A DNA stretch of 36,134 nucleotides from Candidatus Hodarchaeota archaeon (GTDB taxonomy: Archaea; Asgardarchaeota; Heimdallarchaeia; Hodarchaeales; YT1-039): NCBI GenBank assembly GCA_016840025.1, contig JAEOTF010000160.1, forward strand, positions 1 to 36,134. The letters run 5' to 3'. This document shows positions 5,966 through 33,057 of the stretch, in pieces (the first letter of the stretch is position 1; every line of letters starts with the position of its first letter). The position numbers and the translations under genes were made by a program. Below the pieces are notes generated by a model. It was not told where the DNA came from, searched no databases, and was given only the letters and a program-made list of their open reading frames with translations.

Positions 5966-8900
5966 GCATACCACAAAAGATCTAATACGACATCAATAAT
6001 AAAGCCTCTAAACATAATTAAAAATGCTAGAACTGCAGGGATTAAGACTACAGCAAAAAGAGGGACATATTCATAGATCTCAAAGGAAAAGATAAAAGTC
6101 ACAATGATGAGGCCGTACCAGAAAACAAATGAACGCGTTAGTAAGAAAAAATGATCTCTAAGAAGATCCCCTTTTTTAGAGTCGAGATAATTCTTGTGTT
6201 TTGGATAGTAGCCTTCTCTTACTTGTTGCTTGATTTCCTGCAAATGTTTAATGTTTGAACGAGTTCGGAGGATGGTACTAATAACTATTAAAAGAAAACC
6301 TAAAGTAAAGGCTATAATTCCAATATCGTAGTAAATTTGCGGGATGGTGAAGATATAAAGGTTTCTTTGAGAGTGCACAACGTAATAGTCAAACCATTGA
6401 ATCTCACCTGCTATAATAAAGACCATTATAAGCAGAAAAGCAATTAATAGTACGAAAATTAACGCACCATAGAATTTCCTTCTAGAAAACTGCATTGAAA
6501 TAATCTGTGAATGAACGATTTTGAAGAAAAATAACGCAAAAATAGTCAATACTAGTGCAATAGCTAATAAAAGAACCATAAAACTCCATATTGGAGTAGT
6601 TGTAAGCAAATAATACCAACTGGCTAGCACAATCACTAAAGCTAAGCTACTAATCAGCATAAGCATGTTTAAAACCCAGCCAGCTCGTTCTGGATTACTA
6701 CGTAAACGTGCGTAGGTCATTCTGAGACCTTTTGAGAGAATTAATGTAAAAATAAAGGTGGAGATGGCAATTACATAGAGGTTATCGGTAGAAATAGTAA
6801 TTGAAGGGAATTGGGGAATAATCATTACTTCTATTTTATGGGATGAGGATTCTAAGAAACTACCTTTTAGTAGAATCTCCATTTCATATGTACCATGCTT
6901 TAGATCTTTTGTAGGCAGAGACACACCAAATTTATCTCCTTCATCTAAAGCAATTACAGTATAATTCTTTCCGATAAATTGAACGGTGACATTAACCTCA
7001 TCTTGATTTAGTGTGTGTGCATAATTATCATGCACTTTTACATCTAGAGTAATAATGGAGCTTTCAATTACATCTTCCAAAATGCCTGCACCTGGAGAAT
7101 AACTTGCGCCTTCTGCAGATGCAGTGACAGTTGGTATCGCTTCCCCTATCACTACCATCTGTTTTTGCGGAAGATAATTTCCGTTCCAATCTTGATAGTC
7201 ATGGAGATCGATACTCTCATATGGTGAATAACTAATCGTAGAGAAGAGATCCCATTCACCAATGATCCAATTCTCTGTAGTAAAGGCGTAATGATAAGTA
7301 CCATTACCTAAATCTAGACCTCCTATTGTATAAAATAGGTTGGTACCGGTTTTTTGAGCGATAAGATTTACCTGGGCGTTTGTTATAGGACTGTTATAGA
7401 AATTAAATAAATTAACTGAAATATCCACCTGATCGCCTTGAGAAATAGTTGTTGGAGATTCCAGCGAGGAAAAGAGGGTGTAGGCAAGAATTAAATTTTG
7501 AATGGCGAATACTCTTCCATTCTGATCACCTAAAACAATGTCAACAACCCCATTTTGATCAAAATCTTCTAGTATGATGTTAGAAGTTATCGACTCATCA
7601 TATTTAATCGAATTTATCTCTCCTGTAAATCCATCAATGTAGTAAATCCCCTGCCATCCTTGCTTTGTTAATACAATATCGGGTATACTATCCTTTGTAA
7701 GATCCTCAATGACTATTTTAGTATTCTCATCGCTTATAACAATATTATCAAAGATTATTGCATTGAAAATTTCATTTCCTGTAGCGCCATCAAAAATGAA
7801 AATACGATTAGCAACCGTAGCAACAGCAATTTCGGGTATTGCATCATTATTCCAATCATATAATCCAATAGCATCAATCTGCTCTGTTAATCCAATTGAA
7901 CGATAGAGAAGACCTGTGCTTCCATCAATAATATCGATGTCTCCAAGGGATGTTCCTACAACTACATCAGATACGAAGTCATTGTTACAATCACTCACAG
8001 CAAGCGTTGTTATTTCTTGGTTTGAAAGAGTATAATTGTATAATTCAGCTTTAGTTGCTCCATTAATGAAATGAATCATGGAATCTCCTGGAGACCGTTT
8101 AGTAGACTCTTCATAAGACGTAGTGACAAAATCAGGGACGTTATCACCATTCAAGATGCCCGTAGTAAGAAATTCAACCACTCCAGCTCTTATATCACTT
8201 GTGAAAAGCATATCTCCAGTAACCCCATCGATAAAATGAATTTGTCCATATGATCCTACAACAATATCAGGAATGGAGTCCTGTGTGAAATCAATGATGG
8301 TCAATGAATTAATAGACATAGTAGACGCGTGAAGTTTATGGATGGCATCCCCTGTTGTACTATCAATGATAAAAAGATATCCTTTAGATGTACAAGCAAC
8401 AATATCAGGAAGTGAACCATTATTCCACTCTATTTCCGCAATTTTCGTGATTACTTCATCTGTAGCTAATACCTCACTAAAATTAGCTTGAGTTTCTCCA
8501 GTAGCACCATTGATGAAAAATATACTTGGATTTCCTGATGATACTGCTGCTGCAATATCTGGAATTGTATCATTGTTAAAATCAGCTACAACTAAGGAAT
8601 GAATCTTATCTCTTGATTGTTCATAATTAGACATAATATTTCGTTGTAAAACTGGTAAACTAAAAGTATTAGTCTCATTACCTTCAGCTTTCACATTTCC
8701 CCAGGTATCATTAGCCCAATACCAAAAATTCAGAATAGGATTCTCAAAATAAGGAATAGTAAAGGTAACCGAGGTACGTTCGTATTTAGTTGGGAATAGT
8801 GAGATTGTCTTATTAGTTTCATCAATATATTTCATCAATATATTCTTGATATTTGGCTCATCAAATATTACCTGAAATTCGAGTATCTCTTCTGAAGTAG

Positions 8901-10284
8901 TTACTTCAGGTAACAGAGCATAGTTTAAAATAGGAGCCACAAGGTCAGAAAAAATAATATGCACATTCTTTATTCCAGTAGCGATAATGTCATGAACACT
9001 ATCATTGTTCAAATCCACAGCCTTGATTACTCCCACTTCTCCAATTGTAAGGCTTGTATGAAATATTTTCCTAGTAATACCATCTATGAAGCTAATCTCC
9101 CCCTTTACTGTACCAGTTACTAAATCCAAGGTAGAGTCATTGTTCCAATCACAGAGGGAAAGAGAGGAGATAATTGCCGAGGCTGTGCTTGTATCAATTG
9201 TAGAGCCTGTAGAGCCATTAAGAAAATAGATAGTCTCATTAATTCCGCCTACAATAAGATCTGGGGTACTATCATTTGTCCATTCACCTACAGCCAATGT
9301 ATTAATCATGAATCCTAAATCTGAGCTACTAAACAGTATAGTCCCTGTAGAACCATTTATAAAATGTACAACACCGTTAATCCCGCCTGCTGCAACATCT
9401 GGTATAGAATCATTATTAAAATCTTCCACAACAAGGGTATGAATAGCTCCCAGACCGTCAATTTTGGAAATTTCCTGACCATTAGTACCATTAAGAATAA
9501 CAATTCCATCTGCGGTTCCTGCGACAACATCTAGAGTGCTATCATTGTTAAAATCAGCTGCAGCTAGGGTGTGAACGAATCCAGAGGTATCATTGTTGTA
9601 AAGTACAGAACCATTAACCCCATTAAGGAAGAATACGGAGCTATTATCTAATCCAACTGCAATATCAGATACATTGTCAGCATTCCAATCACCCACAGTT
9701 AAAGCAGTAACATTGGCAAGATTCGTATTGTTAAAAAGCGTATTACCCGAAGATCCATCGATAAAGTACACCCCTTCCATAGATGTCCCTATTGCGACAT
9801 CTGGAGTGTCGTCATAATTCCAGTCACCTATAACAAGTGAATTGATCATATTAAAAGTTTCACTAGTGTAAATTATCTCTCTTGTAGTAACATTGAGGAA
9901 ATATACAGTAGAAGAAGAGCTAGCAATGATATCTGGGACAAGATCATCGTTAAAACCAATCACTTTTAATTCGGAAATAGTTTCAGGGACATCAGTGATA
10001 ACTAAAGATGAAATTGGATGTATATCTGAAGAAAAATCGATCTTTTTTGATATAAGATAATCTTGTTGTTGAGTGGGTAATCTAGAAAGGGAAGATAACG
10101 CTATTTCTCTCTTTGATGAGATATCTATTTCCTTTCTATCATTCTCAATCTCTTCTATTTCGATTGTGCTATTGCTTCCACCCACGAAACCATGGATACG
10201 AGCTATGCTTACTAATAAAATAAGAATTAACACACTAATAAGAATAAATTTTGATAAATTTATCTTTAATACGATTAACTTCAT
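5962..10284 (-). CDS. Giant secreted double FG-GAP/VCBS propeller protein with 7TM C-terminus
   Basis: 1440 residues. Residues ~10-33 form a signal peptide or anchor. Residues ~85-455 hold eight FG-GAP/VCBS repeats of the form 'DWNNDSTPDIxxG...xFINGxTG', whose D-x-N-x-D-x-x-x-D core is the known calcium-binding loop of integrin-alpha-type blades. An Ig-like domain follows (~455-545), then eight more repeats (~550-940), then two beta-sandwich domains (~950-1150). Seven membrane helices lie near 1170-1186, 1203-1228, 1232-1255, 1271-1293, 1318-1339, 1380-1402 and 1408-1428. There are many N-glycosylation sequons (NDS, NGS). Two extracellular propellers on a 7TM base suggest a receptor or adhesin. 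The ATG at 10284 has only a weak ribosome binding site. Its TGA overlaps the ATG of the FxLYD gene by 4 nt. The propeller call is firm; the role is inferred. Confidence 0.9.
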   Translation of the reverse strand: MKLIVLKINLSKFILISVLILILLVSIARIHGFVGGSNSTIEIEEIENDRKEIDISSKREIALSSLSRLPTQQQDYLISKKIDFSSDIHPISSLVITDVPETISELKVIGFNDDLVPDIIASSSSTVYFLNVTTREIIYTSETFNMINSLVIGDWNYDDTPDVAIGTSMEGVYFIDGSSGNTLFNNTNLANVTALTVGDWNADNVSDIAVGLDNSSVFFLNGVNGSVLYNNDTSGFVHTLAAADFNNDSTLDVVAGTADGIVILNGTNGQEISKIDGLGAIHTLVVEDFNNDSIPDVAAGGINGVVHFINGSTGTILFSSSDLGFMINTLAVGEWTNDSTPDLIVGGINETIYFLNGSTGSTIDTSTASAIISSLSLCDWNNDSTLDLVTGTVKGEISFIDGITRKIFHTSLTIGEVGVIKAVDLNNDSVHDIIATGIKNVHIIFSDLVAPILNYALLPEVTTSEEILEFQVIFDEPNIKNILMKYIDETNKTISLFPTKYERTSVTFTIPYFENPILNFWYWANDTWGNVKAEGNETNTFSLPVLQRNIMSNYEQSRDKIHSLVVADFNNDTIPDIAAAVSSGNPSIFFINGATGETQANFSEVLATDEVITKIAEIEWNNGSLPDIVACTSKGYLFIIDSTTGDAIHKLHASTMSINSLTIIDFTQDSIPDIVVGSYGQIHFIDGVTGDMLFTSDIRAGVVEFLTTGILNGDNVPDFVTTSYEESTKRSPGDSMIHFINGATKAELYNYTLSNQEITTLAVSDCNNDFVSDVVVGTSLGDIDIIDGSTGLLYRSIGLTEQIDAIGLYDWNNDAIPEIAVATVANRIFIFDGATGNEIFNAIIFDNIVISDENTKIVIEDLTKDSIPDIVLTKQGWQGIYYIDGFTGEINSIKYDESITSNIILEDFDQNGVVDIVLGDQNGRVFAIQNLILAYTLFSSLESPTTISQGDQVDISVNLFNFYNSPITNAQVNLIAQKTGTNLFYTIGGLDLGNGTYHYAFTTENWIIGEWDLFSTISYSPYESIDLHDYQDWNGNYLPQKQMVVIGEAIPTVTASAEGASYSPGAGILEDVIESSIITLDVKVHDNYAHTLNQDEVNVTVQFIGKNYTVIALDEGDKFGVSLPTKDLKHGTYEMEILLKGSFLESSSHKIEVMIIPQFPSITISTDNLYVIAISTFIFTLILSKGLRMTYARLRSNPERAGWVLNMLMLISSLALVIVLASWYYLLTTTPIWSFMVLLLAIALVLTIFALFFFKIVHSQIISMQFSRRKFYGALIFVLLIAFLLIMVFIIAGEIQWFDYYVVHSQRNLYIFTIPQIYYDIGIIAFTLGFLLIVISTILRTRSNIKHLQEIKQQVREGYYPKHKNYLDSKKGDLLRDHFFLLTRSFVFWYGLIIVTFIFSFEIYEYVPLFAVVLIPAVLAFLIMFRGFIIDVVLDLLWYA

Positions 10285-18437: not shown

Positions 18438-18440
18438 CTA
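18438..18440 (-). other. In-frame TAG inside a TSP3 repeat
   Basis: The minus-strand frame reads NDTDGDKL, TAG, DGDEVGGWNV. The codon before and all 66 codons after it up to 18240 stay in TSP3 register with no other stop. The TAG falls at the variable position after 'DGDxL', where the neighbouring SBBP/TSP3 gene has S, Q or L and this gene has K elsewhere (DGLKDGF). Codons for those residues (TCG, CAG, TTG, AAG) are one base away from TAG. Confidence 0.85.
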
Positions 18441-21400
18441 AAGCTTATCCCCATCCGTATCGTTCGAGAGGGGGTCAGTACCATGATTTGCTTCCCCAAA
18501 GCCCTCGGAATCAAAGCCATCCTTTAGTCCATCTCCGTCGGTGTCTGCATTGGTCATATTAGTGCCAAGTACTAGTTCTCGTTCGTTTGTTAAACCATCA
18601 TCGTCAAAATCACTAAAAAGGACTACTTCTACAGGATCTACAACCCCATCTCCATCTGAGTCCGATGACCATGGATATATGGTAGTCACATCTTTCGAAT
18701 AACCTGGTTCCAGATCATCAGTTATGAAATCCCCGTCACTGTCTACAGTGATTGAAATAGACGTGTAAGTTTTCGAAATTACTTGATTAGTCTCAATTTC
18801 TTCCGCTGATACTTCGAGTGAGTACTTCCCAGATGGGTAGGCGCTCGAAGAGTTATATAGATCTGCCAGTACACCTAGAGAATCATATAATGCTTCAAAG
18901 AACTGCCTACTTCCAATAGTACTTGTGTCCACATCTAATCTAAATTTGTAATGCTCATCATAGAATTCTCCTTCACCTGAATCGATTATAGCTCCTTGTT
19001 CATCCTTAAGCGTGTAAGAGATCCCAATATTATCTCGATAATCTTCTCGATCAAATATTGAAAGACCTAAAGTACCAAAAACACGAAGTGTGGCATTGGT
19101 CGAGCCGTAGATATAATAATTAGGGATAGTTATTTCTAACGGTGACTCAACTATTGTGACAGTGAAATTTTCCGATAATTCAGCGCCTTCAGGATCGGTA
19201 ACAGTTAATGTTCCTGAATAAGAACCGTTCTCCAATAATAGTGAAACCAATCTTTCATTATAAATGTTCTCTTCTAGAGTCCAAGTATAACTAAGGCTTA
19301 ACATGTCATATGGACTGTCAGTGACATTTGCATTAAGGATAATTCGATTTCCTTCAGAGACTTCAATATTATCAAGAGGAACCAGGAGTCTTGGTGCAGT
19401 ATTTGTTATATTAGCTGTATATGTATAGTCAGCTGCAGTGTTTTGGTTATCAACTACATGCAGAGTGACATTATAGATTCCTGCGTGAGTGTATGCATGC
19501 TCAACGGTTCTTCCTAATCCGTATGTATTGTCAGCAAAATCCCAATAGTAATACAGGTTATCCATGTCGTCATAAGTGCCTACATCAATAGCCCCAAAAC
19601 TTAATATTTCTCCTTCTTCTTCAAAACCTTGTACAAAGGGTTGGACAGTTGGGGCAAGGTTTGTAATGTTCACCCATTGATGAATGACTGAGTCATAATA
19701 CCCATCATAGAGAACCACCCACACGAGGTATTCACCAAAAGTTGGATAGGAATGAATCGGTGATGTTTCTGGAGATCTATCCCCATCTCCAAAGTGCCAA
19801 TCATATTTTAATGTAGTTAGATTTTTACATGTTGGTTGAATTTGGAAGAATACGGCTTCATTTCCATAAATTTCCGTTTTTCCAAGCCATATTGCATCGG
19901 CTGCATAATGGGAGATATTATATCCCCAACGATCCCAGGATGGGATATTAGTATATGCTGCATCCCAATGATCCAATGCATACTCTTGCAATGGAATATA
20001 ATAGTATTTAGAGGACGCTCCATCTTCATCAGTCGCTATATACCGAAAATCAGTAATGTTGTCTACTGATCCAATAACTGTTACTGTCCCAGCAGTTGGA
20101 TTTGAACCTTGTTTTGTAATAGTTGACTCCTCTACGGTTGAACCAAAATCTACCTGAACAGTTACATCGTCACTACCTGGGTCAAAGACCTGAAAGTCTA
20201 AATTAATTGGAAAGCCGCGATCAATTGGAGCAACAGGAAATCGCCAAGTAGACTCTGCTTCACTAGAGCCATAATAATGGTGATAAAGAGAAAGAGATGA
20301 ACCGTCTTCAAATTCAAACTCAATTTCTGCCCAATTGTCAAAAACTTCTTCTGTAGTAGTTAGGTTCACTAAAATATCCCAGTATTCCTCTAAAGGTTGG
20401 TTCAAATTATAAAATGTGTATCCTTCGAGATTAGAGGTATAATAAATTGATTCACAAATAAGAGATCCACTTCGATTTAATTTATCATCATGGTAGAGTT
20501 CAAAAACTAATTTACTTCCAAGAGTTTCCCCCCAAACTCTGAATGTTACATTGTAAATACTGTAACCAGCGCTCAAACTAGCGATAGGGGGAAGATTACT
20601 CACAGTAAGGTCTACACTCTCTGAAATGTCTGATTTTGCTCCATTATCATCAGTGACATTCAATTGAATAGAGATATTACCGTCATCAGCAAAAGGTACT
20701 GAAGGCTTCCAGCCATCAGCGTCAATATTCCAGTTATATATCATGCTTACTAAGTCACTTTGGGAATCTTCAATGTTAGCTTCACAAGCAATGGTATCTC
20801 CTTCATATATATCATTTATAGAGATGGAAATATTCTGGATAACAGGAACCTGATTCACAATTCTGATCAGTGCAGTTTCTTCACTTCTTTCTCCATCATT
20901 ATCGATAACAGTTAGTTTTACGGTATAAATCCCATCATTGAGATATTGATGGGAGACTACTTTCCCTGTACCCATTAAGCCATCCCCAAATTCCCATATA
21001 TAGATCAAAGAATTCAGATCATAAGCTGTATCATAAGTATCACTAGCATTAAAGACGATTATATCATCTTCATTAACTTGGTTTGCTGAAACTTTGAGAG
21101 ATGGGCTAGGTCGTACATTATTAATGGTAACAGACTTGTAACCTGTGTATACCATAGAATTTTCGTCATACCCTCGTACACGGACGGTATATATTCCCGT
21201 ATGAGTATACGAATGCGAAACATTTTTTCCATACGCAACTGAATCATCCCCAAATTCCCAAATGTATTCTTCGATTTCTGTGGGGAATTCTGGCTCTACT
21301 TCTTCTGTTATGGAGCGGTATGCCCCCACTCTTTCTAAAGTCTCTATATATGGGTAATGAGCTTGAAAATTAATTATTTCATCTTCATTGGCTATGGTCT

Positions 21401-21830
21401 CCGATTCGATCTCAAGTGAACGGGTTTTAGGAAGAACAGTTATTGGTATCGTAAAAATTCTACTTTTACTGTCGGTCACATTGTCCGCAAATTGGAGAAG
21501 GAGTATCGATACGAGGAATCTCCCTGGTTCGTCGAACTGATGGTCTATAACTTGTTCATCGGGTGATGTTACTAAAATACTGGTATTATCGTGAAAATCC
21601 CACATAAGGCGGTAGATATCATAGTTAAGGAGCTGGGAGTCAACAAAAAAGAAAACACGGTCTCCCTGGTAAACCACATTGTTTTCGACCCAAATTGTAT
21701 CATCTGGTAACTCGTCCAATGGAAGAGCTTTGTACTCACCAGGAGGAACAATAGCCATACCAGCTAGTAGAACAGCAATAACAGCAAGTGCACCCGCAGT
21801 GCCTGATTCAGCATGATATTGTTTTACCAT
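18438..21830 (-). CDS. PKD-domain/TSP3 surface protein, N-terminal portion (ends at in-frame TAG)
   Basis: 1130 residues to the TAG; with the downstream part it would be a protein of 2226 codons. A single N-terminal hydrophobic segment (residues ~10-29, TAGALAVIAVLLAGMAIVPP) serves as signal or anchor. About seven PKD-like domains follow, the clearest carrying the hallmark as EFGDDSVAYGK, EFGDGLMGTGK, HFGDGDRSPET and DFADNTYGLGR, each followed by a 'H.Y...G.Y.V' strand. Residues ~410-620 are a different beta-rich region containing WDILVNLTTTEEVFDNW. TSP3 repeats begin near residue 1025 (VDSDGDFITDDLEPG). The start lies 18 nt after the SBBP gene, so the two are one operon. PKD domains usually mediate adhesion or spacing on the surface of archaeal cells. 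Truncation at the TAG would remove the helical C-terminus. Confidence 0.85.
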   Translation of the reverse strand: MVKQYHAESGTAGALAVIAVLLAGMAIVPPGEYKALPLDELPDDTIWVENNVVYQGDRVFFFVDSQLLNYDIYRLMWDFHDNTSILVTSPDEQVIDHQFDEPGRFLVSILLLQFADNVTDSKSRIFTIPITVLPKTRSLEIESETIANEDEIINFQAHYPYIETLERVGAYRSITEEVEPEFPTEIEEYIWEFGDDSVAYGKNVSHSYTHTGIYTVRVRGYDENSMVYTGYKSVTINNVRPSPSLKVSANQVNEDDIIVFNASDTYDTAYDLNSLIYIWEFGDGLMGTGKVVSHQYLNDGIYTVKLTVIDNDGERSEETALIRIVNQVPVIQNISISINDIYEGDTIACEANIEDSQSDLVSMIYNWNIDADGWKPSVPFADDGNISIQLNVTDDNGAKSDISESVDLTVSNLPPIASLSAGYSIYNVTFRVWGETLGSKLVFELYHDDKLNRSGSLICESIYYTSNLEGYTFYNLNQPLEEYWDILVNLTTTEEVFDNWAEIEFEFEDGSSLSLYHHYYGSSEAESTWRFPVAPIDRGFPINLDFQVFDPGSDDVTVQVDFGSTVEESTITKQGSNPTAGTVTVIGSVDNITDFRYIATDEDGASSKYYYIPLQEYALDHWDAAYTNIPSWDRWGYNISHYAADAIWLGKTEIYGNEAVFFQIQPTCKNLTTLKYDWHFGDGDRSPETSPIHSYPTFGEYLVWVVLYDGYYDSVIHQWVNITNLAPTVQPFVQGFEEEGEILSFGAIDVGTYDDMDNLYYYWDFADNTYGLGRTVEHAYTHAGIYNVTLHVVDNQNTAADYTYTANITNTAPRLLVPLDNIEVSEGNRIILNANVTDSPYDMLSLSYTWTLEENIYNERLVSLLLENGSYSGTLTVTDPEGAELSENFTVTIVESPLEITIPNYYIYGSTNATLRVFGTLGLSIFDREDYRDNIGISYTLKDEQGAIIDSGEGEFYDEHYKFRLDVDTSTIGSRQFFEALYDSLGVLADLYNSSSAYPSGKYSLEVSAEEIETNQVISKTYTSISITVDSDGDFITDDLEPGYSKDVTTIYPWSSDSDGDGVVDPVEVVLFSDFDDDGLTNERELVLGTNMTNADTDGDGLKDGFDSEGFGEANHGTDPLSNDTDGDKL

Positions 21831-21848: not shown

Positions 21849-24800
21849 TTAACGCTTCTTCCTTCTCCATGAAAATATCGCATGGCCTCCTACTCCAGCT
21901 GTACCCGCACCTGCAAGGCCAGCACCAGCGATCATTATGGTATTGTCCGCTGTAGGGCGATCCTCAGGATCATTGGGATCTGTACCATTATTTATTTCCT
22001 TTAAATCATTATGTCCGTCCCCATCAGTGTCAGCAAGAGTCGGATTTGTACCTTCCTGCCATTCCTGATAATTAGTTAAACCATCATTGTCTTTATCACT
22101 CTCTCCATCGGAATAAGTAACAGCTAAGGAGTAAAATACTTCCCAGCCATCTGGCATACCATCATCATCTGTATCGTTATTCAATGGCTCTGTATTATAA
22201 ATAAGGACTTCTTCCCCATCTTGAAGCCCATCGGCATCAGTATCTAATCCAGTAACATTTGTCAAATAGATGATAACTTCCTCATAATCAGATAGCCCAT
22301 CAGCATCGGTATCTGATTCAAATGGGTTAGAACCATGACTTATTTCTTGGCCATCTAACAATTTATCAAAATCAGTATCAGCTATTTTAGTATCAGTGTT
22401 ATAGATGGCTACCTCTTCATAAGCAGTCAACCCATCGGAATCGGTATCGATTACCAAAGGATTTGTAGAAAACAAATCTATTTCATCACGGTCTAACAAA
22501 TTGTCTCCATCTGTATCATTCAGTAATGGATCTGTGCCATAGATTTCCATTTCTACAAAATCTAAAATATCATCGTCATCTGTGTCAGGATTATTAGGAT
22601 CTGTGCCATAAAGAATCTCATCGCCGTCACTAAGAAAATCATGGTCTGTATCAGGATGTGTGACGTTAGTTCCGTAGGTTTTGATTTCCTCTCCATCCAA
22701 TAACCCATCTGCATCTGTATCGTTCACAAAGGGATCCGTACCGAGAATTAACTCCTCGGTATCGGTAAGTAAATCGTTATCGGGGTCCGCAGAAATCGGG
22801 TTGGTTTTATTAAGGTATTCAAAATAGTTACTCATTCCATCTAGGTCATCATCATCATCTGCATCATCTGTCAGAGGATCAGTACCATTGATAGCTTCCC
22901 AAGCATCAGGCATATTATCAGAATCAGAATCAGTATTATTAGGTTCTGTCCCATAAGTATTGATTTCTGCATAATCTGATAGCCCATCTTGATCGGTATC
23001 AGCATTAGTGGGATCGGAAATGTTTGTTACCACTTCAAATAAATCACTTAAACCATCTGCATCTGTATCATTCAGATTTGGATTTGTCCCATATTGAACT
23101 TCGTCGTAGTCATCTAAACCATCCGCATCTGTATCATTCAGATTCGGATTTGTCCCGAGCTGAATTTCCGCAGTATCATTCAAACCATCCAAATCAGTAT
23201 CTATTTCGGTAGCATTCGTGAAATAGAATTTTAATTCTTCATAGTCCGTAAGACCATCGTTATCTGTATCATTCAGGGTCGGATCTGTTTTTGCAGCAAT
23301 CTCTTCGGAATCTATTAACCCATCATCATCGGAATCAGCATCATTGGGATCGGATGGAAGATTAACGACTTCTTCATAGTCTGATAATCCATCTTGATCA
23401 GAATCAGCATTGTTGGGATTAGTCTGGTTAGTAAGCTCATCATTGTCTAATAAGCTATCTCCGTCCGTGTCATTACTTAATGGGTTTGTATGATACTGAA
23501 CGACTTCTAATCCATCTAATAATCCATCATCATCGGAATCAGCATCATTAGGGTCTGTTCCTGCTTTGTATTCTTGAATTGCGGTTAGGTCATCAACATC
23601 TGTATCATTAAAACTATCCCACACAATAGGATCTAGACCATTGTCGACTTCCCACCCATCAGGCATCCCATCCCCATCCGTGTCGTTGTTTCGAGGAAGG
23701 GTTCCATTAAGAAATTCGAAATAATCGTTTAATCCATCATCATCTGTGTCAGGGTCGTACACATCGGTATCATTTGTATACTCGTAATAATTAGTTAATC
23801 CATCACCATCTATATCTATTGAACCGTCCGTGATATTTGAAGGATCTAAGTTCATTTGATATTCCCAGATATTAGGCATACCGTCTATATCATCATCCGA
23901 ATTAGAATCATTTAATGTAGGATCAAGCCCATAATTAACCTCCCAACCATCAGGCATACCATCATCATCTGTATCGTTGTTCAGAGGAAGAGTGCCGTAA
24001 GTATGTTCGAAATAATCGTTTAATCCGTCATCATCTGTATCAGCATCATTCACATCGGTACCATTTGTGTATTCATGATAATTAATCATCCCATCTCCGT
24101 CTAAATCTGTGGAGTTATCTGTATCGTTTAAAGGATCTAAATTCATTTGGATTTCCCAGTTATCGGGCATATTATCATCATCAGAATCACTATCGTGGGG
24201 ATCTGTTCCAAAAGTGACAACTTCTTCATAATGTGATAAATTATCATAATCTACATCCGAGCGATCTCCAAGTTTGAACACAAAGACATCAAAACTTAAA
24301 TCGTCATTATGGGTAGAATTATAGGCATTAACCATGGGGAAATCGAGCGATTTTGTACCACCTACGATGTACGCATTACCAGAAGAATCCACCCCTAAAC
24401 CATAGCTATAATCATCATCCTCACCACCAATGTAAGTGGAATACAAAAGAAATTCTTCATTAGGGGATAATTTACATACAAAAACATCTAAAGCGCCATT
24501 GGAGCTATTATCATACGCCTCAGACATAGGAAAATCTGATGATCCTGTTGTACCTGTGACATACACATATCCCAAAGAATCTACACATAGTTCCTCGCCA
24601 TAGTCCCAACTACTGCCTCCAATGAAAGTTGAATATTCAAGTGAATCCCCAGTAGAGTTTAGTTTGAACACAAAGGCGTCATAAGTCCCATTGAGAATAG
24701 AATCAAACTCATTAACCATGGGAAAATCAATTGAGCTAGTGTAACCTGTAATATACACATTTTTGCTTTCATCTACACAAATAGCCTCGCCACGATCTGT

Positions 24801-26309
24801 CGACTCTCCACCAACGAAAGTAGAGTAGTTGAAAGAATCTCCAGTTGGGGTTAATTTGAACACAAAGGCGTCATATGTCCCATTGAGAGTCGCATCATAG
24901 GCATTGGTCGTGGGGAAATCAGTAGAGTATGTCCGTCCTGTTACATAAGCGGAGCCATTAATATCCACGCAGATATCCTCAGCATAGTCTTTAGACTCTC
25001 CACCAACGTAAGTAGAGTAGTTGAGAGAATCCCCTGTAGGTGATAACTTTAGCACAAAGGCATCAGTAGTCCCATTAAGGTTAGAATCGGAAAAATTAGT
25101 GGTTGGAAAGTTAATGGACTGTGTATAACCCGTAATGTATGCAGAGTCTTCATCATCCACATAAATACTCTGACTATAATCTGAGGATGTCCCGCCAATA
25201 TATGTAGAGTACAGGAGCGAGTTCCCAGATGGTGCTAATTTAAGCACAAAAGCATCGTAACTCCCGTTGAGAACAGGATTATAGGCATTAACTGTTGGAA
25301 AATTAGCCGATTGAGTGTAACCTGTGACGTACGCATAGCCACCCCCATCCACGTAAATACTCTGCCCATAATCTGAAGTATCCCCTCCAATATACGTAGA
25401 GTATAGGAGTGAATCCCCAGTGGGGGATAATTTAAACACAAAAACATCATAAGTCCCATCATGAGTTGTATCATAGCCGCTGACTGTTGGAAAATCGGTT
25501 GACATAGTGTAACCTGTAAGATATGCATAACCATTAGCATCTAAATATATATCTTCACCCCAATCCTCAGAATCCCCACCTACATAAGTGGAATATAATA
25601 ATGGATCAATAATTAGCTTTTTAGAAGGATCATATTGGTTAAGAGCGAACCCATATGAGTTATCACTTTTCCTCACAAATTTAGCATCTATCATCTGATC
25701 TTGCTTAACGACTAACTGATCATCGCGGAGTGTTTGTTCCTGACCTAACTCTAATTCTACCGCATCAGAAAAAATAGTTAATTTCGTCTGACCTGTTACA
25801 CAGATTTCAATTTCGGATGGGTTTGCATAGGGTTCAACATAAAACACATATTTGATTCCTTCTCCAGTAGTTTTGTAGATAAGATCAATTCCGTCCCAAA
25901 GATTTTCATAAATTATCGTTGTAAATCTAGAAACATCGGTTATTGCTTGATCCCCTCGAAAATAATTGGATTTTAAATCGACTTCTCCCATTGCTTCGGG
26001 TACAACACTGTTTGCATTTTTAAAAGAATATTCGATGAATTCGGGGTAATCAGATATCCAAAAAATGATTTTGCTGTTGGTAAATCCAGCCATGCCCTCG
26101 GGTAAGTAACTATAATAGAGGATTTCATCATTATTGAGTTGTCCGTTATTTTCCAAAAACTCAGCGCATTCTAACTGTTTTACTTTTTCATAAATATTTT
26201 TCTCTTTTAAAGTAGAATCATTCGCCTCAGGGTCAAATACAGTCCCATTGAAGAATAAAGCAGAAAGGAATAACACATTTATTATTAAAATTACCCGGTG
26301 AAGTTTCAT
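21849..26309 (-). CDS. Secreted seven-bladed SBBP beta-propeller with long TSP3 stalk and C-terminal anchor
   Basis: 1486 residues. A signal peptide lies at ~1-22 (LHRVILIINVLFLSALFFNG). Residues ~45-235 are the domain that usually precedes SBBP propellers (FLENNGQ...; ends KKLIIDP). Residues ~237-687 are exactly seven SBBP repeats of about 64 residues, each beginning 'YSTYxGG..D' with 'VTGYT.S.DFPT.NAYD..LNGTYDAFVFKL', which predicts one closed seven-bladed propeller. Residues ~690-1445 contain more than twenty TSP3-type repeats (D-x-D-x-D-G-L-x-D), a calcium-dependent stalk. The tail has a Gly/Ala-rich membrane helix and ends SWRRKKR. It is the first gene of the minus-strand surface locus, is probably cotranscribed with the PKD gene 18 nt downstream, and is preceded by GGAGAA 6 nt before the ATG. 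Surface adhesin is likely; the ligand is unknown. Confidence 0.92.
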   Translation of the reverse strand: MKLHRVILIINVLFLSALFFNGTVFDPEANDSTLKEKNIYEKVKQLECAEFLENNGQLNNDEILYYSYLPEGMAGFTNSKIIFWISDYPEFIEYSFKNANSVVPEAMGEVDLKSNYFRGDQAITDVSRFTTIIYENLWDGIDLIYKTTGEGIKYVFYVEPYANPSEIEICVTGQTKLTIFSDAVELELGQEQTLRDDQLVVKQDQMIDAKFVRKSDNSYGFALNQYDPSKKLIIDPLLYSTYVGGDSEDWGEDIYLDANGYAYLTGYTMSTDFPTVSGYDTTHDGTYDVFVFKLSPTGDSLLYSTYIGGDTSDYGQSIYVDGGGYAYVTGYTQSANFPTVNAYNPVLNGSYDAFVLKLAPSGNSLLYSTYIGGTSSDYSQSIYVDDEDSAYITGYTQSINFPTTNFSDSNLNGTTDAFVLKLSPTGDSLNYSTYVGGESKDYAEDICVDINGSAYVTGRTYSTDFPTTNAYDATLNGTYDAFVFKLTPTGDSFNYSTFVGGESTDRGEAICVDESKNVYITGYTSSIDFPMVNEFDSILNGTYDAFVFKLNSTGDSLEYSTFIGGSSWDYGEELCVDSLGYVYVTGTTGSSDFPMSEAYDNSSNGALDVFVCKLSPNEEFLLYSTYIGGEDDDYSYGLGVDSSGNAYIVGGTKSLDFPMVNAYNSTHNDDLSFDVFVFKLGDRSDVDYDNLSHYEEVVTFGTDPHDSDSDDDNMPDNWEIQMNLDPLNDTDNSTDLDGDGMINYHEYTNGTDVNDADTDDDGLNDYFEHTYGTLPLNNDTDDDGMPDGWEVNYGLDPTLNDSNSDDDIDGMPNIWEYQMNLDPSNITDGSIDIDGDGLTNYYEYTNDTDVYDPDTDDDGLNDYFEFLNGTLPRNNDTDGDGMPDGWEVDNGLDPIVWDSFNDTDVDDLTAIQEYKAGTDPNDADSDDDGLLDGLEVVQYHTNPLSNDTDGDSLLDNDELTNQTNPNNADSDQDGLSDYEEVVNLPSDPNDADSDDDGLIDSEEIAAKTDPTLNDTDNDGLTDYEELKFYFTNATEIDTDLDGLNDTAEIQLGTNPNLNDTDADGLDDYDEVQYGTNPNLNDTDADGLSDLFEVVTNISDPTNADTDQDGLSDYAEINTYGTEPNNTDSDSDNMPDAWEAINGTDPLTDDADDDDDLDGMSNYFEYLNKTNPISADPDNDLLTDTEELILGTDPFVNDTDADGLLDGEEIKTYGTNVTHPDTDHDFLSDGDEILYGTDPNNPDTDDDDILDFVEMEIYGTDPLLNDTDGDNLLDRDEIDLFSTNPLVIDTDSDGLTAYEEVAIYNTDTKIADTDFDKLLDGQEISHGSNPFESDTDADGLSDYEEVIIYLTNVTGLDTDADGLQDGEEVLIYNTEPLNNDTDDDGMPDGWEVFYSLAVTYSDGESDKDNDGLTNYQEWQEGTNPTLADTDGDGHNDLKEINNGTDPNDPEDRPTADNTIMIAGAGLAGAGTAGVGGHAIFSWRRKKR
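21990..24245 (-). repeat. TSP3 calcium-binding repeat tract
   Basis: A coding tract rich in GAT/GAC codons, encoding more than twenty units of the type 'NDTDADGLSDYEEV..YGTNP', 12-37 residues apart. Adjacent units are nearly identical at the DNA level (for example around 23040-23160, two copies of 'GTNPNLNDTDADGL'). This indicates recent unit duplication and makes the tract prone to length change or misassembly. Confidence 0.85.
24250..25602 (-). repeat. Seven tandem ~192-nt SBBP repeats
   Basis: Seven consecutive coding units of about 64 codons, recognisable by YSTYVGG/YSTYIGG/YSTFVGG at each start. Blades 4 and 5 and blades 1 and 2 are the most alike. The last blade has two extra residues and is the least typical. 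Confidence 0.85.
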
Positions 26310-26813: not shown

Positions 26814-29165
26814 ATGTTATTAATTAATGACGAAGAATTACTTTATTCGACAGATGAACTAGGTTTTCAGTCAAAGATTCGAAAAATCGTTAAAACAGAG
26901 ATATTTCCCATTGTAGAGGAAATCGAAAATAAAACCATTGAGTACCAGGAATTCTTTAAGAAACTCGGTAGTTCTGGCTTATCAGGATTATTAATGCCTA
27001 AAAAATATGGTGGCTCCGAGAAACCATTTATGTATCAGCTCATTGCAGGTGAAGAACTCTCTGCTGTAAGCCCTACAGCTACAATGATGTTTGGAGCGAG
27101 TTGCACCCTATCTGCGATTCCTATATTACGTTTTGGGACCGAGGAACAGAAACAGAGATATCTTGTCCCATTGGCAAAGGGGGAAAAAATTGGTGCTCTT
27201 GCGATCACAGAACCGAATGTGGGAAGCGACACCGCGGGAATGGAGACCACAGCAGTCTGGAATGAAGAACAACAATGTTGGATTTTGAATGGAGAAAAGC
27301 GTTTTATCACCAACGGAAGTATAGCCGACCAAATTGTCACCTTTGCTATCACTAATCCTGATGTTGATAGCAGGAGTGGCATGTCTGCTTTTATCATCGA
27401 AACGTCGTGGGAAGGGTTTTCAGTGGTTAAAGATTTTCAACTTATGGGGCGTCAAGGCGTTTATAATTCACATATTAAATTTAATAATCTTAAAGTCCCT
27501 AAAGAGAATCTTCTAGGCAAACTGAATCATGGCTTTCTCATTTTAATGGATGAACTTGATTCGGAAAGAATAGGAATTGCAGCGGAAGCCCTAGGATGTA
27601 TCCGAACGCCGCTGGAGATTGCAATAGATTTTTCGCAAAAAAGAGTTCAATTTGGGCGACCTATTTCCCGTTTTGAAGGAATATCTTTCAAGATAGCGGA
27701 CATGACAATGAAATACCGAGCAGCAAGATTACTGATGATTTCCGCAGCAAGAATGGTGGAAAAAGGTCTTCCATGTACGAAAGAAGCGACAATGGCAAAG
27801 TTATATGCAACTGAGGCTTCTGTAGAAATCTGTGACTTAGCAATGCAAATTTGTGGAGGAGAGGGGTACGTGAAGGATTATTATCCATTAGAGCGATTTT
27901 ATAGAGATGCACGATTAGGTACAGTAGGCGGTGGAACTTCAGAAATTTGTCGATTTCTTATCCAAAGAGAAGTCTATATGGAAAGTAAAAGAGGTAAAGT
28001 TACTCAGAAAACACTTCCCGATACTGAAAAGATAGATTTCGATGTCATAATGCAGACAATTCCCAATGCATTCCGTCCAGATCGTGCTGAAGGTGTTTCT
28101 GCCGATATTCAATTTTGTTTTACAGAAAGTAACTGGTTATTAAGAATAAATAATCAAAAATGTGTGATAGAAAAAACCAAATTAGAAAATCCAATCATGA
28201 CGATTAATACCGATGAAAAAACTTGGATCGACATATTATTAGCAAAACTTGATGCCATGCAAGCAATGATGACGGGAAAAATTAAGATTGATACTGATGA
28301 CATGGATTTATTAATGAAATTTTCGCGTATGTTCAAATTTACACCAGATCTGATTGAAAGTACCAGCATAGAAGATGAACTACCAGAAGAAAAACCAAAG
28401 TTTCAATTAGGTAAGACTATAGATGAAATAAATGTGGGTGATATAGCTCAAGAAACAATGGAGGTAACAGAGCATCATATTGAACTATATGCGAAAATGT
28501 CTGGAGACTATAATCCTCTACATATGGATGCAAATTATGCTTCTACAACAATATTCGGTAGTAAAATCGCTCATGGACCAATTGGCGGGGCTCTGGTAGC
28601 TAGAACCGTTGGTATGAAATTACCAGGCTTAGGGACAATAGCTTATAATATGAAAGTAAATTTCACAGCACCTGTTTATCCAGGTGATGAAATTACTGCA
28701 ATTGTAGAAGTTAAAGAAAAAGATCTAGAAAAGAATTTGGTAAGATTGGATTTTAAAGTAATCAACCAAAAAAACGTAGAAGTAATGAATGGATACACTA
28801 ATGTTATGCCACCAATAGCTGAAATCGAGGAAAATGAGCAAGATATAGAAGATCTTGATGCTCAGATCTTAATTGAAAAACCAAGAGAACAGGAAGAGAT
28901 TGATCCACAATTAACAACTGAATTCGAAGAAGCAGTGAAAAGAGTAAATAAGTTACCCAATCAACCTCCAAAAATATTAATGGACATGTACGGGTTATAC
29001 AAGCAGGCAATACAGGGAGATATCACAGGGAAACGACCGGGGCGAATGAATGTTAAGGCCAGATACAAATTTGATGCATGGAGCAGTAGAAAGGGAATGT
29101 CAAGGGAAAAAGCAATGGAAGCGTATATTGAACTGATAAATAAACTTGAACAAGAGACTACCTAA
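26814..29165 (+). CDS. Four-domain beta-oxidation fusion: acyl-CoA dehydrogenase, SCP2, MaoC (R)-enoyl-CoA hydratase, ACBP
   Basis: 783 residues, soluble. Residues ~1-390 are an FAD acyl-CoA dehydrogenase (ITEPNVGSDT at 131-140; QFGRPISRFEG; MQICGGEGYVKDYPLERFYRD-like region at 344-365). The usual 'YEGT' glutamate is replaced by Gly373 in VGGGTSE. Glu251 in LDSERIG matches the catalytic-base position of isovaleryl- and long-chain enzymes. Residues ~408-508 are an SCP2 lipid-carrier domain. Residues ~530-665 are a MaoC hotdog hydratase with the (R)-hydratase motif SGDYNPLHMDANYA (Asp565, His570) and AHGPIGG. Residues ~697-780 are an acyl-CoA-binding protein domain (MYGLYKQAIQGD; KFDAWSSRKGMSREKAMEAY). 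It should convert acyl-CoA to enoyl-CoA and then to (3R)-hydroxyacyl-CoA. No hydroxyacyl dehydrogenase, thiolase or ETF gene is nearby. The start at 26814 follows AAGGATGG. Confidence 0.92.
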   Translation: MLLINDEELLYSTDELGFQSKIRKIVKTEIFPIVEEIENKTIEYQEFFKKLGSSGLSGLLMPKKYGGSEKPFMYQLIAGEELSAVSPTATMMFGASCTLSAIPILRFGTEEQKQRYLVPLAKGEKIGALAITEPNVGSDTAGMETTAVWNEEQQCWILNGEKRFITNGSIADQIVTFAITNPDVDSRSGMSAFIIETSWEGFSVVKDFQLMGRQGVYNSHIKFNNLKVPKENLLGKLNHGFLILMDELDSERIGIAAEALGCIRTPLEIAIDFSQKRVQFGRPISRFEGISFKIADMTMKYRAARLLMISAARMVEKGLPCTKEATMAKLYATEASVEICDLAMQICGGEGYVKDYYPLERFYRDARLGTVGGGTSEICRFLIQREVYMESKRGKVTQKTLPDTEKIDFDVIMQTIPNAFRPDRAEGVSADIQFCFTESNWLLRINNQKCVIEKTKLENPIMTINTDEKTWIDILLAKLDAMQAMMTGKIKIDTDDMDLLMKFSRMFKFTPDLIESTSIEDELPEEKPKFQLGKTIDEINVGDIAQETMEVTEHHIELYAKMSGDYNPLHMDANYASTTIFGSKIAHGPIGGALVARTVGMKLPGLGTIAYNMKVNFTAPVYPGDEITAIVEVKEKDLEKNLVRLDFKVINQKNVEVMNGYTNVMPPIAEIEENEQDIEDLDAQILIEKPREQEEIDPQLTTEFEEAVKRVNKLPNQPPKILMDMYGLYKQAIQGDITGKRPGRMNVKARYKFDAWSSRKGMSREKAMEAYIELINKLEQETT

Positions 29166-29199: not shown

Positions 29200-32100
29200 T
29201 TAGGCAAGTAAGGGTTTCATGATCGTAAAATAGAACGTGCTTCCTTGCCCTACTTCTGATTCAACCCAAATTTTTCCACCGTTCATCTCAATGATCTTTT
29301 TTACTAGAGCAAGCCCAATTCCAGTTGCTTCTTTCTCATCTCGGGGGGAAAGGGTCTGAAACATTTGAAATATTTTAGCAAAGTATTTTTCCTCAATCCC
29401 TGATCCATTATCAGCTACACTGAATTGCCAATAAGCATCCTCATCTGTACAGCGAATATTGATGAGTCCTAAAGGCTTATCCATAAATTTGATTGCATTG
29501 TCTAATAAATTCAGAAATACTTGAGTAATTCGCGTTTTTTCATAGTGGAGAACAGGTAATTCGGAAGGAATTTCAATTTTGATAGTGGGTGGAGGATTAA
29601 GTACCTCTATCACTTCCGAAATGACCTGATATAAATCCAATTCCACTTTCACATCTCGAGTTCGTCCTAAACGAGAATATTGGAGTATCCCTTCAATCAG
29701 TGCATCCATGCGTTTTACTCGACCGATTAATAAACTGAATCGTTCCTTTCCTTTCTCATCCAACTGATGCTCATATTCTTGAACGAGCCAATCTGCCAAA
29801 AACGCCATCCCTCGTAAGGGCGCTTTCAAGTCATGTGAAACAATATACGCGAAATCTCTTAATTCAACATTAACCTTCTTTAGCTCTTGTAACAAGCGTA
29901 GGTTTTCAATTTCTCGTTGTTTCATTTCTGTGATGTCCATTATTGCTACAAGGAAAGCGGGTTTATTCTGATAGTCGATTATTTGTGAATAATTATCTAC
30001 CCACTTCGTTTTGTTCGTTTGAGAGACTATTCTCACCTGATAACGGGGAATTTGTTTGACTTTAACACGGTCTTGATAACTTTGTACTTGTTCTACTATA
30101 ATCTGTATATCTTCGGGATGAATAACTTTGTTAAGATCATTTATTGTCCAATTTAGTATCTCTTCTCTTGGATATTCAAAAATATTGATAAAAGCGTCAT
30201 TTATGAACTTAATTGTTGAATCCTGAACGATAGCTAAACCAACTAGTGATGACTCGGCAATCACTCGGAATTTTTGCTCACTTTCTTTTAGAGCTTCTTC
30301 CGCTCGCTTACGTTCAGTGTTGTCATTAAATGTAGTAAAAAGAGCTGGTTTGTCTTGGTAATTAATAAGGGATGTGGACGTTTCTACCCACTTAAGTTGG
30401 TTTGTCTTGGTGAATATACGAAGTGGATAATAAGGATCCAACTTTACTTCTTGATAATTTTGTAACCTTCGGGCTGGTATTAGTGCGTGTTCACGATCAT
30501 CAGGATGTATACGCTGAGCTATCTCCTCTATAGTCCGATTTACTATCTCTTCCCTTGAGTAACCGAACATTTGAACAAAAGCATCGTTAATATATTTTAT
30601 CTGCCCTTCTTGAATAATACTCATGCCAAATAGGGAAGATTCCGCTAAAGTTCGAAATTTTTCCTCACTCTCTCGTAAAGCTTCTTCTGTTAGCTTTTGT
30701 GATGTAATATCAACGATTTTTACAAGATATTGGACTGGAGACGTAGTTTTTTCTGGCTTTATGGCTGTAAGAAAACACTCTATATGCATAATCCCGGATT
30801 TTGTACACCGATATACTTTCCGCGCTTTAAAATCTTCAAAATCGACAGTATCTGGATAACGTACGATCTTTGTATGTTTTAGTTGTGTGGTAATTTCTTT
30901 CCATTTATTAGGATCCTTATGGAAAGAAAGCCCTAGTACCTCTGATTTATCAACGGTCCCATATAAATCCATACAGGTCTTATTTAGATCGACTAGTTTC
31001 CCCTCTTCATTGTATAATTCAATCGCGAGTGGGGAATCGGCAAATATCTTTCTAAAACGTTTTTCACTCTCACTTAATGCAATATTTGCTTGTTTTTGTG
31101 CAGTTATATCAATATTGACGATAAAATCAGCAGGTTTACCCCCATAAATGATTGTTTGCGAAAATACTTCTAACCATTTGAGTTTGTTCGTTCTTGTGAG
31201 TATTCGGTACTGATATCTCGGGATTACCCCCTCTACTATACCAGCTTGCTTTTTTGTCAGTTGTTCCCGAATTAGTGGTGCATCTTCAGGATGAATATAT
31301 TTTAAGACATCACTAGAAGTCAATTCAAGCTGTTCTTCTTTACTAACTTCAACTATTGCTGCCATTGCGTCATTTATGTATTTAACTTGGTTATCTTGAA
31401 TAATAGTTAGTCCTACCATTGCAGAGTCAGCAAGAACGCGGAATTTCTCTTCACTTTCTTTTAGAGCTTTTTCCATCAATTTTTGGTCTGTAATATCTAT
31501 AAAGGAAGATAATACACTAACAGGTTTTCCTGATTCATCTTTAATCATGCTTACCGAGAGAAGAACATGAAGAGGTGACTTATCTTTTATATAGAGAATG
31601 GTTTCGCCAATCCAACTACCCCGGCTATCTAGGCAATCCTCAATTTCATGAATTAGTTCTATTTGGGTAGTAAATTCATTAATATTTTTCCCAACCATAT
31701 CTTCCTCATTATAACCCGTCATTCTAAGATAAGTTGGATTTACATAAGATATTACGCCATTCAGATTAGTTATTGTAATTGCATTAATCGATGAATCAAT
31801 AGCATATTCTTTCAGCCAGAGATCTTGTTCTGCTTTCTTAAGTTCAGTAATATCTCGAACAATGTTACCCAACATGTAACCCTTATCAGTTTTTATAGTA
31901 AAGGGGAATTGCTGAATATTTCTGCGCGAATGATCTCTTCTTTGGATTATTGTCTCTTGGATCTGTAATTGATGCGGATCTTGTCCTTTTTTCAGAAGTT
32001 CACTTATAGATTCCTTTTGTATCTCATACATTTCTAAATTTTTTCTCTCTTCAGGCATAACATCAAAGCTAAATTCCCAAACTAGCAGATTCAATGCCTC

Positions 32101-33057
32101 TTTTTGCTTTAATCCAAATATTTGCTCCATTGCAGGATTCCATTCGCATATGTACCCGTTTTCATCTGCTAAAATGATACCATAAGGTGCATATTTCACG
32201 ATATTGCGAAATTTCTCCTCACTCTCCCTGAGTACCAGTTCTGCCTGTTTTTGATTGCTAATATCATGGAAGATCCCTTGAATTATTAATTTATTACCGA
32301 GTTTAACTGTAGAAGCGGTTATTTGAACAGGTACAATTTTCCCCGACTGAGTTATTATCTCTCCTTCTCCGCTAGCACCCTTTTTCTGTCTTATATGATT
32401 TCTAAACTGTTTAATATATTTAGCCTTTTTTTCAGGGGGATGCAACATATACTGATGGAGACCAATAATTTCTTCTTTACTTCTTTCCAAAAGGATTTCT
32501 GCTGCCTTATTACAGTTAATTATTGTACCTGTATCGGGATCAGCCCAGAATATTGCATCTTTTGCATGTTCAAAGGTTAGTCGGAATTTCTCCTCGCTAT
32601 CCAATAGCACCTGTGCTGCCCGAAATTTGTCTTTATCGTCTACTAACTTTGTTTGTTTTGGTTTATGTTCCACAGATTCATGAATAAATAATAAAGCTCC
32701 TGTAAAGTTATTTTTATCTTGGAAAGAAACTATTTTGTACGAAATAGTGAGAATTCTTCCATCTTTGTTTATGATCTCTAATTTGGATTCTAGTTTTCGT
32801 TCACTAACAAGAATTGAAAATTGATCATGAAATGAGGAAATGAAGGAATCAGTAAGAAAGTCTGTTAGGGGTTTTTCAACAATTTCGTTCTTCTTATAGC
32901 CTAAAATTTTCTCTGCAGCAGGATTACAGTCAATAATAGTCCTATTCATGTCTATAACTAAAACTCCCTCTGAGATATGTTCAAATATTAAATGATAGTC
33001 TATGCTAGGGTGTAGAACTGGATCTCTTCCCTTTTTGGAGCTGTTTAATCTAACCAT
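29200..33057 (-). CDS. Soluble sensor histidine kinase with eight PAS domains
   Basis: 1285 residues with no membrane helix, so a cytoplasmic sensor. Eight PAS domains start near residues 20, 155, 280, 415, 536, 663, 797 and 926, most introduced by 'ESEEKFR' and several with PAC ends such as DITxQK. PAS 5, 7 and 8 are closely similar (ESSLFGMSIIQEGQIKYINDAF versus ESSLVGLAIVQDSTIKFINDAF), indicating recent duplication. The HisKA domain has phospho-acceptor His1075 in IVSHDLKAPLRG. The HATPase domain has an N box (LDNAIKF, Asn1187), a G1 box (DNGSG, 1216-1220) and TGIGLALVKKI. There is no receiver domain and no response regulator in the window, so the partner is elsewhere. The gene converges on the acyl-CoA dehydrogenase fusion with only 34 nt between stops. 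No haem or flavin signature was evident in the PAS domains. Confidence 0.95.
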   Translation of the reverse strand: MVRLNSSKKGRDPVLHPSIDYHLIFEHISEGVLVIDMNRTIIDCNPAAEKILGYKKNEIVEKPLTDFLTDSFISSFHDQFSILVSERKLESKLEIINKDGRILTISYKIVSFQDKNNFTGALLFIHESVEHKPKQTKLVDDKDKFRAAQVLLDSEEKFRLTFEHAKDAIFWADPDTGTIINCNKAAEILLERSKEEIIGLHQYMLHPPEKKAKYIKQFRNHIRQKKGASGEGEIITQSGKIVPVQITASTVKLGNKLIIQGIFHDISNQKQAELVLRESEEKFRNIVKYAPYGIILADENGYICEWNPAMEQIFGLKQKEALNLLVWEFSFDVMPEERKNLEMYEIQKESISELLKKGQDPHQLQIQETIIQRRDHSRRNIQQFPFTIKTDKGYMLGNIVRDITELKKAEQDLWLKEYAIDSSINAITITNLNGVISYVNPTYLRMTGYNEEDMVGKNINEFTTQIELIHEIEDCLDSRGSWIGETILYIKDKSPLHVLLSVSMIKDESGKPVSVLSSFIDITDQKLMEKALKESEEKFRVLADSAMVGLTIIQDNQVKYINDAMAAIVEVSKEEQLELTSSDVLKYIHPEDAPLIREQLTKKQAGIVEGVIPRYQYRILTRTNKLKWLEVFSQTIIYGGKPADFIVNIDITAQKQANIALSESEKRFRKIFADSPLAIELYNEEGKLVDLNKTCMDLYGTVDKSEVLGLSFHKDPNKWKEITTQLKHTKIVRYPDTVDFEDFKARKVYRCTKSGIMHIECFLTAIKPEKTTSPVQYLVKIVDITSQKLTEEALRESEEKFRTLAESSLFGMSIIQEGQIKYINDAFVQMFGYSREEIVNRTIEEIAQRIHPDDREHALIPARRLQNYQEVKLDPYYPLRIFTKTNQLKWVETSTSLINYQDKPALFTTFNDNTERKRAEEALKESEQKFRVIAESSLVGLAIVQDSTIKFINDAFINIFEYPREEILNWTINDLNKVIHPEDIQIIVEQVQSYQDRVKVKQIPRYQVRIVSQTNKTKWVDNYSQIIDYQNKPAFLVAIMDITEMKQREIENLRLLQELKKVNVELRDFAYIVSHDLKAPLRGMAFLADWLVQEYEHQLDEKGKERFSLLIGRVKRMDALIEGILQYSRLGRTRDVKVELDLYQVISEVIEVLNPPPTIKIEIPSELPVLHYEKTRITQVFLNLLDNAIKFMDKPLGLINIRCTDEDAYWQFSVADNGSGIEEKYFAKIFQMFQTLSPRDEKEATGIGLALVKKIIEMNGGKIWVESEVGQGSTFYFTIMKPLLA

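Follow-up and report, generated by a model that had tools for sequence, protein, structure and literature searches.

We identified an archaeal gene that encodes four lipid-metabolism domains in a single chain: an acyl-CoA dehydrogenase (ACAD), an SCP2 domain, a MaoC domain and an acyl-CoA-binding protein (ACBP), in that order from N- to C-terminus. We think it probable that this is a true gene fusion from an Asgard archaeon, composed of a two-step acyl-CoA enzyme core and an ACBP joined to it. The four-domain form is one sequence on one contig, with no second copy in the databases searched. Its features within the window (the whole stretch of DNA analysed, 36,134 nucleotides) are as follows.

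26814-29165, + strand: four-domain protein ACAD-SCP2-MaoC-ACBP, one open frame, 783 aa, ATG start
26853..27974, + strand: ACAD domain, residues 14-387, Pfam Acyl-CoA_dh N/M/1; nearest solved structure 5lnx MmgC
27564..27566, + strand: predicted catalytic base Glu251 (DSERIG), on helix G where isovaleryl-/long-chain ACADs have theirs
27930..27932, + strand: Gly373, by alignment the usual catalytic-Glu site of short-/medium-chain ACADs
28077..28337, + strand: SCP2 sterol-carrier-type domain, predicted lipid-binding, residues 422-508, Pfam
28449..28739, + strand: MaoC / (R)-specific enoyl-CoA hydratase domain, residues 546-642, Pfam and 5cpg match
28506..28523, + strand: Asp565...His570 (SGDYNPLH), predicted catalytic pair, MaoC motif aligned with 5cpg and 1iq6
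28818..28892, + strand: acidic linker of 25 residues (10 acidic, 2 basic), lacking stop and start codons in frame
28917..29138, + strand: ACBP domain, residues 702-775, Pfam

A first-pass annotation had placed four lipid-metabolism domains in this 783-residue chain, and a Pfam scan bore this out, with scores above the cut-offs for Acyl-CoA_dh_N (89.5 bits, cut-off 22.9), Acyl-CoA_dh_M (75.7, cut-off 33.3), Acyl-CoA_dh_1 (151.2, cut-off 22.4) and MaoC_dehydratas (76.2, cut-off 27), and also for the SCP2 (39.4, cut-off 21.3) and ACBP (83.1, cut-off 28.3) matches that the annotation had singled out for a profile search. E-values for the four domain types range from 8e-10 (SCP2, the weakest) to 3e-44, which excludes chance matches. 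The N-terminal, middle and C-terminal ACAD domains are all present in Pfam, placing the protein in the ACAD superfamily. Among named sequences, the nearest to the core and likewise the nearest to the ACBP come from Asgard archaea, in agreement with the annotation's suggestion of a possible Asgard host.

The annotation had also called the four-domain combination unusual. No other example turned up in the searched data, but ACAD-SCP2-MaoC is already one protein in Asgard archaea. We surveyed 227 Asgard genomes, scoring at most four candidates per genome, and 46 had a match at E <= 1e-120. ACAD-SCP2-MaoC proteins (about 675 aa) were present in 13 genomes and ACAD-SCP2 proteins (about 520 aa) in four further ones; one more genome has a fragment reaching SCP2, and the remainder had ACAD only. 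Among the matches listed, none extends past residue 676. The protein search gave a consistent picture: 2573 of 7997 scored candidates passed, and among the 120 listed the ACBP occurs in the window protein only. Named proteins in this list come from Thorarchaeota, Promethearchaeota, Hodarchaeota/Hodarchaeales, one Heimdallarchaeota and one Odinarchaeota. On genome contigs, eight of nine loci carry three-domain Asgard genes (68-71% identity) and the ninth a Bacillota ACAD. Three of the four domains are thus already fused in several Asgard groups, and the novelty lies in the ACBP tail alone.

An alignment of 117 listed proteins longer than 500 aa (P0001-P0118, window included; 86 longer than 640 aa) locates this difference precisely. 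The three-domain protein of Hermodarchaeota, Thorarchaeota and others is 68-73% identical to residues 1-670 and has the same domain order and catalytic residues, but it lacks the ACBP: in the 85 relatives longer than 640 aa the chain stops 1-18 residues past the residue 668 column (1-2 residues in 79, 5-6 in three and 18 in three). NCBI labels this protein 'acyl-CoA dehydrogenase family protein'. A two-domain ACAD-SCP2 protein from Hodarchaeales/Heimdallarchaeota is 63-73% identical to residues 1-514 and lacks both MaoC and ACBP. In an ACAD+SCP2 tree of 56 rows, a quick tree in which long outgroup branches were flagged, the window protein falls near the base of a 39-row group (SH-aLRT 94, not starred) to which every MaoC-bearing row of the tree belongs, along with five MaoC-less rows of 521-532 aa. 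Two further relatives, P0119 and P0120 (773-774 aa), contain two complete tandem ACAD domains per chain.

The C-terminal domain has the hallmarks of the ACBP/ACBD family, in both its Pfam profile and the acyl-CoA-binding Tyr and Lys residues. It matches the solved structure 1st7 by sequence comparison (E 2e-17), and alignment with 1st7 and 6kf8 finds the predicted acyl-CoA ligand residues Tyr726, Tyr729, Lys730, Lys752 and Tyr771 present, at positions named in the available text of PMC7057175. When the domain alone served as query, we found 25 stand-alone proteins of 82-94 aa, three with Asgard names; 24 are 61-73% identical to the window domain and one (P0145) 56%. From EEID onward, the tail resembles these stand-alone proteins minus their start Met. 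In a tree of 34 rows the window domain groups with 27 Asgard-type ACBPs (support 98/95). This tree holds two eukaryotic rows, and beyond the Asgard clade its resolution is poor; a eukaryotic or bacterial origin of the domain was set aside. Stand-alone ACBPs are rare in Asgard archaea, occurring in three of the 227 genomes (G049, G058 and G059; 59-70% identical to the window domain). Two of these three also have ACAD-SCP2 (Fisher p 0.017 with n=3, kinship uncorrected, and not used as evidence).

Fusion of this tail to other proteins was sought among 5.8 billion proteins, with residues 676-783 as query and proteins of 431-1370 aa considered, a search that reaches fairly close relatives; of 52 candidates, the window's own protein was the only one. 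A survey of bacterial ACBPs in plasmid and phage collections gave no match between the window ACBP and phage records, and yielded one extended bacterial ACBP, an alpha/beta hydrolase-ACBP encoded on a Variovorax plasmid (WP_319361828.1). This fusion indicates that extended prokaryotic ACBPs are not wholly absent, contrary to the available text of PMC7057175 (2020), which describes prokaryotic ACBPs, one of them from Lokiarchaeota, as small forms only, with no extended ones. The Variovorax protein (489 aa) likewise has its ACBP C-terminal to an enzyme-type domain, but the enzyme is a different one and the ACBP is 47% identical over 75% of the query.

The single observation, together with the missing join in 13 three-domain relatives across the 227 genomes, raises the question of whether an assembly or sequencing artefact has joined two genes. 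We regard this as very unlikely. MaoC and ACBP lie in the same frame, the join falls at a domain boundary, and residues 665-708 contain no in-frame ATG, GTG or TTG that could start a separate ACBP. The acidic linker is free of stops over its 25 codons (a chance of 0.13 by base composition, weak alone), and the other two frames contain 2 and 4 stops. A single indel would probably not restore two complete genes, and both parts are of Asgard type. Base composition bears on the question from both sides. GC content is 0.399 in ACAD, 0.328 in SCP2, 0.343 in MaoC and 0.389 in ACBP, and the gap between the ACAD and MaoC parts would suit a chimera; the corresponding gap in eight relatives is at most 0.021 in seven, but L003, an ordinary three-domain gene, has a nearly equal shift (0.049), and the shift in the window precedes the join. 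We take the GC differences neither as evidence of a chimera nor as proof against one. With its one frame, acidic linker and absent ACBP start codon, the fusion looks genuine at the sequence level.

Read-through of two adjacent genes was considered as a source of the fusion and rejected: ACAD-SCP2 lies about 1.9 Mb from the ACBP in G059 and on another contig in G049. The ACAD-SCP2 gene was not found in the 1.4-Mb assembly of G058, which has a stand-alone ACBP. Counter to a flat absence of linkage, however, G058 has an ordinary ACAD gene (40% identical) 3.4 kb from its ACBP.

The window's other genes encode large repeat proteins, a PAS histidine kinase, NUDIX and PhzF proteins and several proteins without a Pfam match; among neighbours with a Pfam match, none is a lipid-metabolism gene. 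The kinase (29200-33057, - strand; 1285 aa, many PAS domains) is convergent with the four-domain gene. On the same strand as the kinase are a 1486-aa protein with DUF7948, SBBP beta-propeller repeats and many TSP3-type repeats (21849-26309) and large FG-GAP and PKD-repeat proteins (5962-10284 and 18438-21830), the latter probably at the cell surface. The PhzF protein has matches in 149 of the 227 Asgard genomes, the best of them scattered and 59-63% identical, and a 565-aa gene has matches in nine, one of them good; these patterns single out no class within Asgard archaea for the host. At eight of eight three-domain loci (L001-L007, L009) a divergent 552-aa gene of aldehyde dehydrogenase type lies upstream, its copies 69-83% identical to that of L004. 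The L004 copy is recognised by Pfam Aldedh, and the L001 copy likewise by aldehyde dehydrogenase models. This gene is absent from the window, and its absence, like that of lipid-metabolism genes among the Pfam-matched neighbours, counts against our preferred reading.

The stand-alone ACBP genes of G058 (L066) and G059 (L067) are preceded by DUF169 and ICMT/PEMT-type genes that are 77-83% identical between the two genomes. Of the three genomes with a stand-alone ACBP, G058 has, about 2-7 kb from that gene and with other genes in between, both a methylmalonyl-CoA mutase gene and a cluster of ACAD, AMP-binding (acyl-CoA synthetase-type) and ETF genes. These genes suit a role in acyl-CoA breakdown. 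Adjoining the ETF gene is a 306-aa gene (L066:1285-2205, - strand) with a mechanosensitive channel domain (52.8 bits) and a sub-threshold N-terminal ETF match.

Sequence comparison places the whole-length ACAD domain nearest to MmgC (5lnx, E 2e-88) and short-chain/butyryl enzymes, not to isovaleryl-CoA dehydrogenase (IVD), and the 50 listed of 764 Foldseek matches to the whole AlphaFold model are all ACAD-family chains. Its active-site residues follow another pattern. Every one of the 117 aligned rows, the window's among them, has Glu in the 251 column, at a position where short-chain/butyryl enzymes align with Gly. Column 373 is Gly in 116 of the 117 rows and Ala in one, the usual Glu being missing throughout. 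IVDs carry Ala there, as judged by direct alignment of their J/K-loop letters; the helix-G location of the base in IVD and the long-chain enzyme (LCAD) was taken from the available text of PMC10925408. The predicted active site is of the IVD/LCAD type, with a Glu on helix G and none on the J/K loop.

This base, conserved in every aligned row, could point to a branched or bulky substrate, whose source would be branched amino acids or isoprenoid chains and which SCP2 would select, in place of straight fatty acids. SCP2 domains bind bulky lipids. Branched and sterol substrates are associated with LCAD in the available text of PMC10925408. Chain specificity is not fixed by the base's position alone, though, and the whole-length kinship just described lies with short-chain enzymes. 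ACBPs, moreover, prefer long straight acyl-CoA. On balance we think a branched or bulky substrate rather unlikely.

The SCP2 domain matches the solved structure 4uei weakly by sequence comparison (E 0.008), but is recognised by its Pfam profile and was modelled by AlphaFold with high confidence. The MaoC domain matches the (R)-specific enoyl-CoA hydratase 5cpg (E 3e-28) and human MFE-2 hydratase 1s9c (E 2e-8). The Asp and His of SGDYNPLH, which we take to be the catalytic pair of MaoC/PhaJ hydratases, are kept in each of the 90 aligned rows where a MaoC domain is present; the other 27 of the 117 have a gap. The domain carries the (R)-specific enoyl-CoA hydratase (MaoC/PhaJ) motif, and its predicted product is of the (R) form. 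Both active sites look intact by alignment. The AlphaFold model of the 783-aa protein (75 rows, mean pLDDT 75.8) has good confidence over most of ACAD, SCP2 and ACBP and poor confidence at residues 134-141, at 371-373 in an ACAD loop, and at 522-618 and 654-690 in MaoC and the linker. The low confidence in MaoC, the linker and loop 371-373 makes the domain arrangement unreadable from this model.

Most likely, the domain content specifies two consecutive beta-oxidation steps by the (R)-route, with ACBP and SCP2 keeping the acyl-CoA close. ACAD would remove two hydrogens from acyl-CoA, with electrons presumably passing to ETF, and MaoC would hydrate the trans-2-enoyl-CoA to (R)-3-hydroxyacyl-CoA, to be processed further by a dehydrogenase and a thiolase that are not part of this chain. 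SCP2, situated between ACAD and MaoC, would likely hold the acyl chain in its hydrophobic pocket between the two sites. A stand-alone Asgard ACBP was probably joined to the C-terminus in this lineage through a flexible acidic linker and would give the enzyme a reservoir or delivery domain of its own for acyl-CoA, comparable to that of animal ACBD2/ECI2. We put forward tentatively the full form of this scheme, a one-chain module whose own ACBP takes up acyl-CoA, whose SCP2 holds the chain and whose two active sites process it in succession. We infer activity, direction, substrate class and inter-domain hand-over alike, with the oxidative direction more likely than the reductive.

A precedent for the (R)-route may be offered by three Fusobacteriota plasmids, which encode the same two activities as neighbouring ACAD and MaoC genes (36.9-40.5% identical) together with ETF genes, but as separate proteins and with no adjacent SCP2 or ACBP gene annotated. 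Two of these plasmids also carry thiolase and a ketoreductase gene annotated as beta-ketoacyl-ACP reductase, and for such clusters a reductive direction is plausible. By analogy, ACAD in the four-domain protein would be an enoyl-CoA reductase and MaoC an (R)-3-hydroxyacyl-CoA dehydratase in reverse beta-oxidation, serving synthesis or fermentation. The best NCBIfam match, acryloyl-CoA reductase, fits this direction, but its 345 bits are below the 640-bit cut-off and the name was not adopted. An acyl-CoA reservoir fits an enzyme that consumes acyl-CoA, and the acyl-CoA synthetase/ACAD/ETF cluster and methylmalonyl-CoA mutase gene near the G058 ACBP likewise speak against synthesis. IVD, which shares its base position with LCAD, is an oxidative enzyme. 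LCAD itself is also oxidative according to the available text of PMC10925408. We consider the reductive direction doubtful, and retain the oxidative one as our working assignment.

The first-pass annotation had compared the protein to peroxisomal multifunctional enzyme 2 (MFE-2), which combines a MaoC-type hydratase and SCP2 in the order SDR-MaoC-SCP2. The likeness proved superficial. SCP2 follows MaoC in MFE-2 but precedes it in the window protein, a Pfam scan of the 783-aa protein gave no SDR match, and the hydratase is nearer the PhaJ type, as the 5cpg and 1s9c E-values indicate; kinship with MFE-2 was accordingly rejected. Nor did a proposed bearing on how eukaryotic fatty-acid oxidation arose hold up: with ACBP so rare among Asgard genomes and a two-eukaryote tree that resolves no tie, it is unsupported, and on present evidence the four-domain protein does not bear on that origin. 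Another parallel is animal ACBD2/ECI2, likewise an ACBP fused to a fatty-acid-oxidation enzyme, but with the ACBP N-terminal, an enoyl-CoA isomerase as the enzyme and a distribution confined, according to the available text of PMC7057175, to metazoans. For ACBD2/ECI2, a role of the ACBP in acyl-CoA channelling has been suggested, and the ACB domain is not essential for ACBD2 enzyme activity (both statements from the same text).

In the open-licence literature, we found no paper on Asgard SCP2 or on archaeal SCP2 with MaoC and ACAD, and PMC7057175 alone, through Lokiarchaeota, on Asgard ACBP; among the titles listed for fusions (10 of 28), none concerned one of the ACAD-SCP2-MaoC-ACBP type. The available text of PMC8163825 on Hermodarchaeota gives beta-oxidation enzymes and does not mention sterol carrier or acyl-CoA-binding proteins.

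The window protein is an extended archaeal ACBP, joined to two enzyme domains; extended ACBPs are a class that the available text of PMC7057175 reports as having no members in prokaryotes. If the one-chain module is correct, this would be the first extended archaeal ACBP described, as far as our searches show, and would provide a natural experiment on whether beta-oxidation runs faster with tethered carriers. The three-domain enzyme, so far named by its first domain only, is a concrete candidate for (R)-route beta-oxidation in Asgard archaea, and the natural pair of proteins with and without ACBP permits a direct test of the tethered carrier's role.
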